This document shows positions 331 to 41,398 of a stretch of DNA of 64,000 bases, piece by piece (the stretch's first letter is position 1; every line of letters begins with the position of its first letter). This stretch comes from Sycon ciliatum (lineage: Eukaryota; Porifera; Calcarea; Leucosolenida; Sycettidae). The notes beneath the pieces were generated by a model. That model did not search any database. It saw only the letters and a list, made by a program, of their open reading frames with translations, and was not told where the DNA came from. The stretch lies in assembly GCF_964019385.1 (NCBI RefSeq), contig NC_088655.1, forward strand, positions 19,059,296 through 19,123,295, given 5' to 3'. Made by a program: the position numbers and the translations under genes.

Positions 331-507
331 CTTCATAGCATGTTGGCGGTTCGGGATACCATTGAAGACTATCGCTGCACATTATACTGTTACTGCCAAC
401 CATGAGGTACCCAGGGTTACAAGTTACCATGACAGTTCTGCCGATGTAAAGTCCCGAAACGGACAGTGCCGCATTGCGTATGACTGGTAAAGTGCATGCT
501 GGCATGT
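331..507 (-). CDS. Sushi/CCP exon, module 4
   Basis: A 177-nt, phase 1-1 exon, acceptor ATCTTGACAG and donor GAAG|GTAAGA. It is the last exon in the window; by analogy an EGF exon should follow off the left edge. It is almost identical to the module-2 sushi (29383-29559). The differences include Thr to Met beside a cysteine and Asn to Ser in the next turn. Confidence 0.88.

Positions 508-41398: not shown

Follow-up and report, generated by a model that had tools for sequence, protein, structure and literature searches.

An EGF, C-type lectin and sushi exon array in a sponge probably forms the middle of a large adhesion G-protein-coupled receptor gene

The minus strand of a 64,000-nucleotide stretch of DNA from Sycon ciliatum (the window; positions 19059296-19123295 of contig C14 in a source genome of 538 Mb and 313 contigs) carries a regular series of exons for sushi, EGF-CA and C-type lectin domains. 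Selectins contain the same three domain types, which raises the question of whether the locus encodes a rearranged relative of these proteins or a receptor of another kind. The window and 100 kb on each side of it were read, with negative window coordinates denoting positions below position 1. We find that the exons in the window are most likely the central part of a very large (~105 kb) animal gene, which very probably encodes an adhesion G-protein-coupled receptor (GPCR). The same reading, with the same high confidence, gives the order of the encoded parts as six LRRs, a linking exon, an FN3-like exon, a sushi domain, four cassettes of EGF-CA, C-type lectin and sushi, six or seven Ig domains, a hormone-receptor-like stretch, a GAIN-like region and the start of a GPS.

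Exons of the array

Four sushi, three EGF-CA and three split C-type lectin domains were previously predicted to alternate strictly on one strand and in one frame. Pfam searches and profiles built from the exons place all of these modules where they were predicted (Table 1), and the 13 array exons together with the exon at 41105-41398 comprise 2520 nt with zero stops. Likewise in agreement with the prediction, all module borders are in phase 1, and each lectin is an exon pair (phases 1-0 and 0-1) that closes in frame around a phase-0 intron. Any one order of 10 such modules represents 1 of 4200 arrangements, and therefore a chance order is ruled out.

Profiles for the four exon types, applied to both strands of the window, recovered 4, 3, 3 and 3 copies. 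No further array exon in the window was convincing on either strand, as the next-best profile matches had E values of ~0.1 or worse, and regular expressions for whole domains missed split or divergent exons. The domain search that had been proposed as a check yielded a divided result. All three EGF exons in the window score above the EGF_CA cut-off of Pfam, as do the three sushi exons scanned (S0, S1 and S2, with S3 at 331-507 lying outside the scan) and the joined lectins 1 and 3, but the middle lectin, lectin 2, scores below it.

The limits originally proposed for the gene, 331 to 41398, proved to be too narrow. A fourth EGF, lectin and sushi set is located at -1124 to -11405, and more exons are present on both sides. 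In addition, the exon ending at 41398 is not a sushi, EGF or lectin exon.

Several repetitive elements were also observed in the window. Minus-strand reading frames matching RVT_1, a transposon reverse transcriptase, occupy 51421-52974 (E 1.8e-10) and 5616-6302 (E 7.1e-15), and no RVT_1 match was found on this strand in 52975-54351. Dense repeats at 13300-16550 and 22900-24200 lie in or near the 15.5-kb intron of lectin 2, an inverted repeat spans 13312-14292, and many further copies of the tRNA-Ser-like units at 14.4-16.4 kb occur below the window.

Table 1. Exons placed in the gene, listed from upstream to downstream.
Feature	Position	Strand	Phase	Remarks
LRR exons, two outermost	71887-71958 and 70556-70627	-	2-2	72 nt each; upstream of window
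LRR exon c	60941..61012	-	2-2	72 nt
LRR exon d	59776..59847	-	2-2	72 nt
LRR exon e	49820..49891	-	2-2	72 nt
LRR exon f	45190..45261	-	2-2	72 nt
Linking exon	42616..42746	-	2-1	Also in next gene downstream
FN3-like exon	41105..41398	-	1-1	Named by eye
Sushi S0	39164..39346	-	1-1	Pfam E 1.8e-11
EGF-CA E1 (unit 1)	38037..38165	-	1-1	Pfam E 1.1e-8
Lectin 1, N half	33835..34049	-	1-0	
Lectin 1, C half	30291..30432	-	0-1	Joined lectin 1 Pfam E 9.7e-8
Sushi S1	29383..29559	-	1-1	Pfam E 3.1e-13
EGF-CA E2 (unit 2)	28385..28513	-	1-1	Pfam E 9.9e-10
Lectin 2, N half	27725..27936	-	1-0	Followed by 15.5-kb, repeat-filled intron
Lectin 2, C half	12009..12180	-	0-1	Joined lectin 2 Pfam E 0.034, below cut-off
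Sushi S2	10203..10376	-	1-1	Pfam E 5.8e-12
EGF-CA E3 (unit 3)	8885..9013	-	1-1	Pfam E 1.2e-8
Lectin 3, N half	3311..3522	-	1-0	91% identical to lectin 4 N half
Lectin 3, C half	2216..2390	-	0-1	Joined lectin 3 Pfam E 5.2e-6
Sushi S3	331..507	-	1-1	91% identical to S1 (29383-29559)
EGF, unit 4	-1252..-1124	-		Same profiles; splice sites fit
Lectin 4	-1698..-1487 + -2366..-2198	-		Same profiles; splice sites fit
Sushi S4	-11405..-11232	-		Same profiles; splice sites fit
Ig1	-12649..-12317	-		Placed exon
Ig2	-14178..-14057 + -14980..-14806	-		Joined, I-set E 4.3e-15
Ig3	-17416..-17084	-		Placed exon
Ig5	-21806..-21492	-		Placed exon
Ig6	-22375..-22254 + -23094..-22920	-		Joined, I-set E 6.7e-16
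Ig7	-23686..-23378	-		Placed exon

Flanking exons and sister loci

On the upstream side, LRR exons d and f match LRR_8 with a Pfam E value of 2e-10 when joined to each other, which is not their transcript order. The FN3-like exon has no Pfam match and no PDB match, its fold prediction has a pLDDT of 40, and joining it to the linking exon yields no Pfam match. The chain from the six LRR exons through the linking exon, the FN3-like exon, S0 and the four units to Ig1-Ig3 contains 29 exons and 4730 nt with 0 stops. Control chains assembled from random pieces of equal lengths (500 chains) carry a mean of 63.8 stops and a minimum of 39, although this comparison serves only for orientation because the exons were picked for openness. 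As the frame stays open along this whole chain, the single gene that was originally predicted is most likely correct.

Could the locus instead hold two or more genes side by side, with the LRRs, the lectin array and an Ig-type GPCR encoded separately? The 15.5-kb intron within lectin 2 and the large introns between LRR exons are consistent with such a division. However, the two halves of lectin 2 complete each other across the long intron, and the exon phases agree all the way from the LRR exons (2-2), across the linking exon (2-1) and the modules (1-1), to Ig3. Moreover, at 22.57 and 22.66 Mb on C14 an FN3-like exon is likewise followed by the array and then by a 7TM match, and we therefore regard separate genes as quite unlikely.

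Two further observations concern the upstream region. A 38-bp unit forms 8.2 perfect repeats at 44911-45221 and covers the 3' end and donor of LRR exon f, so the donor site is present in many copies. At ~135-146 kb on the minus strand is a neighbouring gene with EGF-like sequence, a GPS and membrane helices (by eye), the GPS end and first helix near 140.4 kb and the last helices near 136 kb, which is apparently another adhesion GPCR.

Behind sushi S4, Pfam detects Ig domains. Six were placed, and a half domain near -21000, recognized by eye, would give seven. The first half of Ig4 was searched for and not found, and with this and other exons unplaced the exon chain from Ig3 to the GPS start is incomplete. 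The Ig domains are followed by a hormone-receptor-like stretch (HRM, E 0.019) and by GAIN-like exons (best Pfam E 0.012, for subdomain B), both of which score below the cut-off, and the GAIN-like region has no PDB relative. At approximately -32438, an exon that reads SAGEAKCVFWDFDK and carries a donor lies directly before a 200-N assembly gap at about C14:19026600. Only the first part of the GPS, KCVFWDFDK, could be read (by eye); the GPS-start exon begins in phase 0, and the exon before it ends in phase 0.

No 7tm_2 match was observed between 18955779 and 19100401 on C14, the place expected for the 7TM, among the best 150 of 164 candidates scored. A search directly behind the array revealed no clear membrane-spanning exon and led to a GAIN-like exon. 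The gene's own 7TM may lie in or behind the gap, or may have been lost. From -33284 to -47540 on the same strand is the start of another gene of this family, with two LRR exons, a linking exon and an FN3-like exon that is 89% identical to 41105-41398; no sushi, EGF or lectin was found behind the latter exon down to -100000.

Searches of the same genome yielded 15 matches to the lectin N half, all on C14, and nine to the FN3-like exon, six of them on C14. Matches to sushi number at least 130 (26 on C14; best 150 of 1361 candidates scored), to EGF at least 132 (16 on C14; best 150 of 1773) and to 7tm_2 at least 112 (33 on C14; best 150 of 164), and the order along the strands was analysed with the C14 matches. 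There, every lectin N half (15 of 15) has a sushi next on the same strand and is preceded by EGF (13) or by sushi (2), and a lectin comes next after each of 13 EGF matches, three weak ones outside the arrays being left out. Six array loci were distinguished, all with the order sushi - (EGF - lectin - sushi)n. This gene has four lectins, the loci at 22.51-22.57 Mb and 22.66-22.69 Mb have six and two, and those at 22.89, 23.08 and 23.30 Mb have one each.

At all five of the other array loci, a 7tm_2 match is next downstream on the same strand. The loci at 22.57 and 22.66 Mb start with an FN3-like exon. Of the remaining FN3-like exons, that at 18.37 Mb precedes two sushi matches but lacks a lectin match behind it, and neither sushi nor lectin follows at 18.79 or 19.01 Mb. 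At C14:22532244-22562571, two pairs of lectin matches with equal scores are 23,035 bases apart, reflecting either a tandem duplication of very recent date or a duplicate introduced by the assembly. The region of C14 from 17.2 to 23.3 Mb includes at least 33 of the at least 112 7tm_2 matches listed, and the contig thus holds a large receptor-gene cluster. Outside this genome, the lectin and EGF alignments gave pattern matches in viral contigs with no relative confirmed, pattern matches in other genome contigs likewise included no confirmed relative, and one sushi exon had no match in phages.

The sister locus at 23.30 Mb, of which 20 kb of DNA were read, has a full GPS (46 bits, Pfam E 7.8e-12) followed by 7tm_2 (24.1 bits, E 2.5e-5). 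Behind its last sushi are relatives of Ig6b (59% over 34 amino acids), of the hormone-receptor-like stretch (37% over 70; HRM E 0.0013, below the cut-off) and of three GAIN-like exons (40% over 57, 32% over 57 and 46% over 84), with no Pfam GAIN match. These relatives are colinear with the downstream exons of the gene under study and lie before the sister's GPS and 7TM, which indicates that the exons behind our array are those leading to such a region. A long N terminus of several adhesion-type domains, a trait of adhesion GPCRs, is also present. Together, the flanks and the paralogues with 7TM make an adhesion GPCR most likely, rather than a relative of selectins.

Cassette history and ligand sites

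The exons of individual cassettes do not share one history. For example, all 53 identical residues of sushi exons S1 and S3 use the same codon, with none of 27 fourfold sites changed; for E1 and E3, the codon is the same at 35 of 37 identical residues, and 2 of 18 fourfold sites are changed. In contrast, the lectins of these same units diverge as much as any lectin pair, with 18 of 42 codons in common and 10 of 17 fourfold sites changed in the N halves, and 11 of 22 codons in common and 5 of 11 sites changed in the C halves. The introns before S1 and S3 (80.8% over 672 columns, exon included; exons 97%) and before E1 and E3 (77.3% over 383 columns, exon included; exons 93%) can still be aligned. 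Lectin block 3 (2079-2886 and 3268-3805) is 92% identical to lectin block 4 below the window.

The array thus has a mosaic history: the EGF and sushi exons that units 1 and 3 share are young, the lectins they surround are old and divergent, and lectin 3 is a recent copy of lectin 4. Within a single unit, the exons differ in their nearest relatives, which requires gene conversion or unequal exchange, and simple tandem duplication of whole units was rejected as an explanation. The intron at 2391-2886 in lectin 3 matches that at -2197 to -1699 in lectin 4 with 98.3% identity, compared with 92% and 91% for the flanking introns, a pattern that would fit a second, later copying of part of the block.

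Among the 15 exon pairs with a computable silent distance or, where this is saturated, with pN compared with pS, 13 have replacement changes that are less frequent per site than silent ones. The exceptions are S1-S3 among the window exons, with 5 replacement and 0 silent changes, and lectin 3-4. Between the C halves of lectins 3 and 4 there are 11 replacement and 2 silent differences, including the change from QPD to QPN. This excess has p = 0.09 relative to all flanking intron differences and p = 5e-4 relative to the middle intron alone, and the whole lectin gives p = 0.54. Positive selection on these C halves is therefore suggestive only.

These data bear on the possibility that the gene is a decayed or truncated adhesion GPCR, with an open ectodomain but a lost 7TM, from which a secreted decoy or nothing is made. 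Such decay might account for the missing 7tm_2 match among the candidates scored, for the gap directly after the GPS start and for the repeated copies of the LRR exon f end and donor in the 38-bp array. We nevertheless consider it unlikely, given 0 stops in 1576 codons, the prevalence of silent over replacement changes outside the two exceptional pairs, and the 7TM match behind each of the five sister arrays. A pseudogene was rejected on the same absence of stops and mostly lower rate of replacement changes.

In calcium-dependent, sugar-binding C-type lectins, the ligand site carries EPN or QPD together with WND. The corresponding motifs are DPD and WFD in lectin 1, which retains both Cys residues of the second disulphide. 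Lectins 2 and 3 have QPD and lectin 4 has QPN, all three with WHD, and they lack both of these Cys residues; the joint loss of this pair fits a protein still under constraint. The Asn of WND is absent from all four lectins. Sugar binding by these domains is putative.

A candidate recognition receptor and its known counterparts

The proposal that the gene encodes an adhesion or immune recognition protein is plausible, and the occurrence of sister genes with one to six cassettes makes it look like a fast-changing cell-surface recognition receptor. Adhesion GPCRs signal by GPS cleavage and a tethered agonist. In the mechanism we envisage, the protein would sit on the cell surface, where its lectin modules, as many as four in a row and spaced by EGF and sushi domains, would touch glycans or proteins of microbes or of neighbouring cells. 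Ligand binding or pull would then act through GPS cleavage and the tethered agonist on G proteins. Through duplication and gene conversion, cassettes would come and go and would be homogenised in part, with the lectins remaining or becoming different.

A more specific, tentative proposal is that this adhesion GPCR family serves as a modular innate recognition receptor. Cassettes would be added or lost (one to six), EGF and sushi exons would be homogenised by gene conversion, lectins would be preserved or pushed to differ at the ligand site (QPD, QPN, DPD), and one 7TM would read the changing lectin row. The outer domains of adhesion GPCRs are known to be diverse; here they include repeated cassettes whose number varies between sisters (6, 4, 2, 1, 1 and 1). 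The cassette series and the mosaic history within one gene offer a natural series for testing combinatorial glycan recognition.

A selectin-like or lectican-like adhesion or matrix protein that has no 7TM is a very improbable alternative, even though the domain set is that of selectins and the PDB matches include the lectin domain of aggrecan (E 2.1e-4). Selectins have the order lectin - EGF - sushi, the rotations of which are L-E-S, E-S-L and S-L-E. The cycle of the array is EGF, lectin, sushi, and neither S-E-L nor E-L-S is among these rotations. None of the 53 PDB matches is named as a selectin. Furthermore, the lectin of Fugu selectins is assigned to one 5' exon in the Figure 1 legend of PMC514892, whereas all four lectins here are encoded by two exons separated by a phase-0 intron. 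The original prediction of a rotated selectin thus captured the domain set but not the arrangement, and a selectin relation is rejected by domain order and exon structure. This case illustrates that likeness in domain set can mislead when order, flanks and paralogues are left aside.

The G3 domain of lecticans (aggrecan, versican, neurocan and brevican) has the same EGF - lectin - sushi order as the array, in one copy rather than four, and lecticans bind hyaluronan through N-terminal link modules. A Fugu versican fragment with EGF, CTLD and CCP domains is described in part of PMC514892. Unlike lectican G3, each lectin of this gene is split by one intron. In lecticans the trio is at the C-terminal end, whereas the cassettes here are followed by Ig and GPS exons. 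No chondroitin-sulphate region or link module was seen in this gene, and minus-strand Pfam scans of 41001-64000 and of three downstream-flank pieces produced no link-domain match. A lectican relation therefore agrees in order but not in flanks, and was rejected. The mannose-receptor family, members of which are among the best PDB matches, also combines several C-type lectin domains in one receptor, but its lectins stand directly in a row, with no EGF and sushi between them. The original description of a multi-lectin receptor is incomplete, as flanks and paralogues indicate an adhesion GPCR and not a free-standing lectin receptor.

Excerpts of an amphioxus study describe GPS-type receptors that, like this gene's product, have multi-domain N termini and that include Lectin C-type, I-set and other domains, and no tandem EGF-lectin-sushi array is described in that portion of the text (Nordstrom and colleagues 2008, PMC2246102). 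Part of PMC4302439 notes the domains EGF, fn3, Ig, HRM and SRCR in adhesion GPCRs of sponges, and surveys of these receptors in cnidarians, ctenophores, sponges and bivalves, likewise seen as extracts, are available (PMC8260672, PMC11797021, PMC6208332 and PMC12842671). The array architecture is undescribed in the literature searched, which consisted mostly of open-access texts, partly in extract, and it may have been published elsewhere.

The gene resembles a known GPCR group in having LRRs in front and Ig, hormone-receptor-like and GAIN-like regions before the GPS. This group is ADGRA (human group III), which has the order LRR - Ig - hormone receptor domain - GAIN - 7TM. The sponge gene differs from ADGRA in what lies in between, namely an FN3-like exon, a sushi domain, the EGF-lectin-sushi cassettes and several Ig domains.
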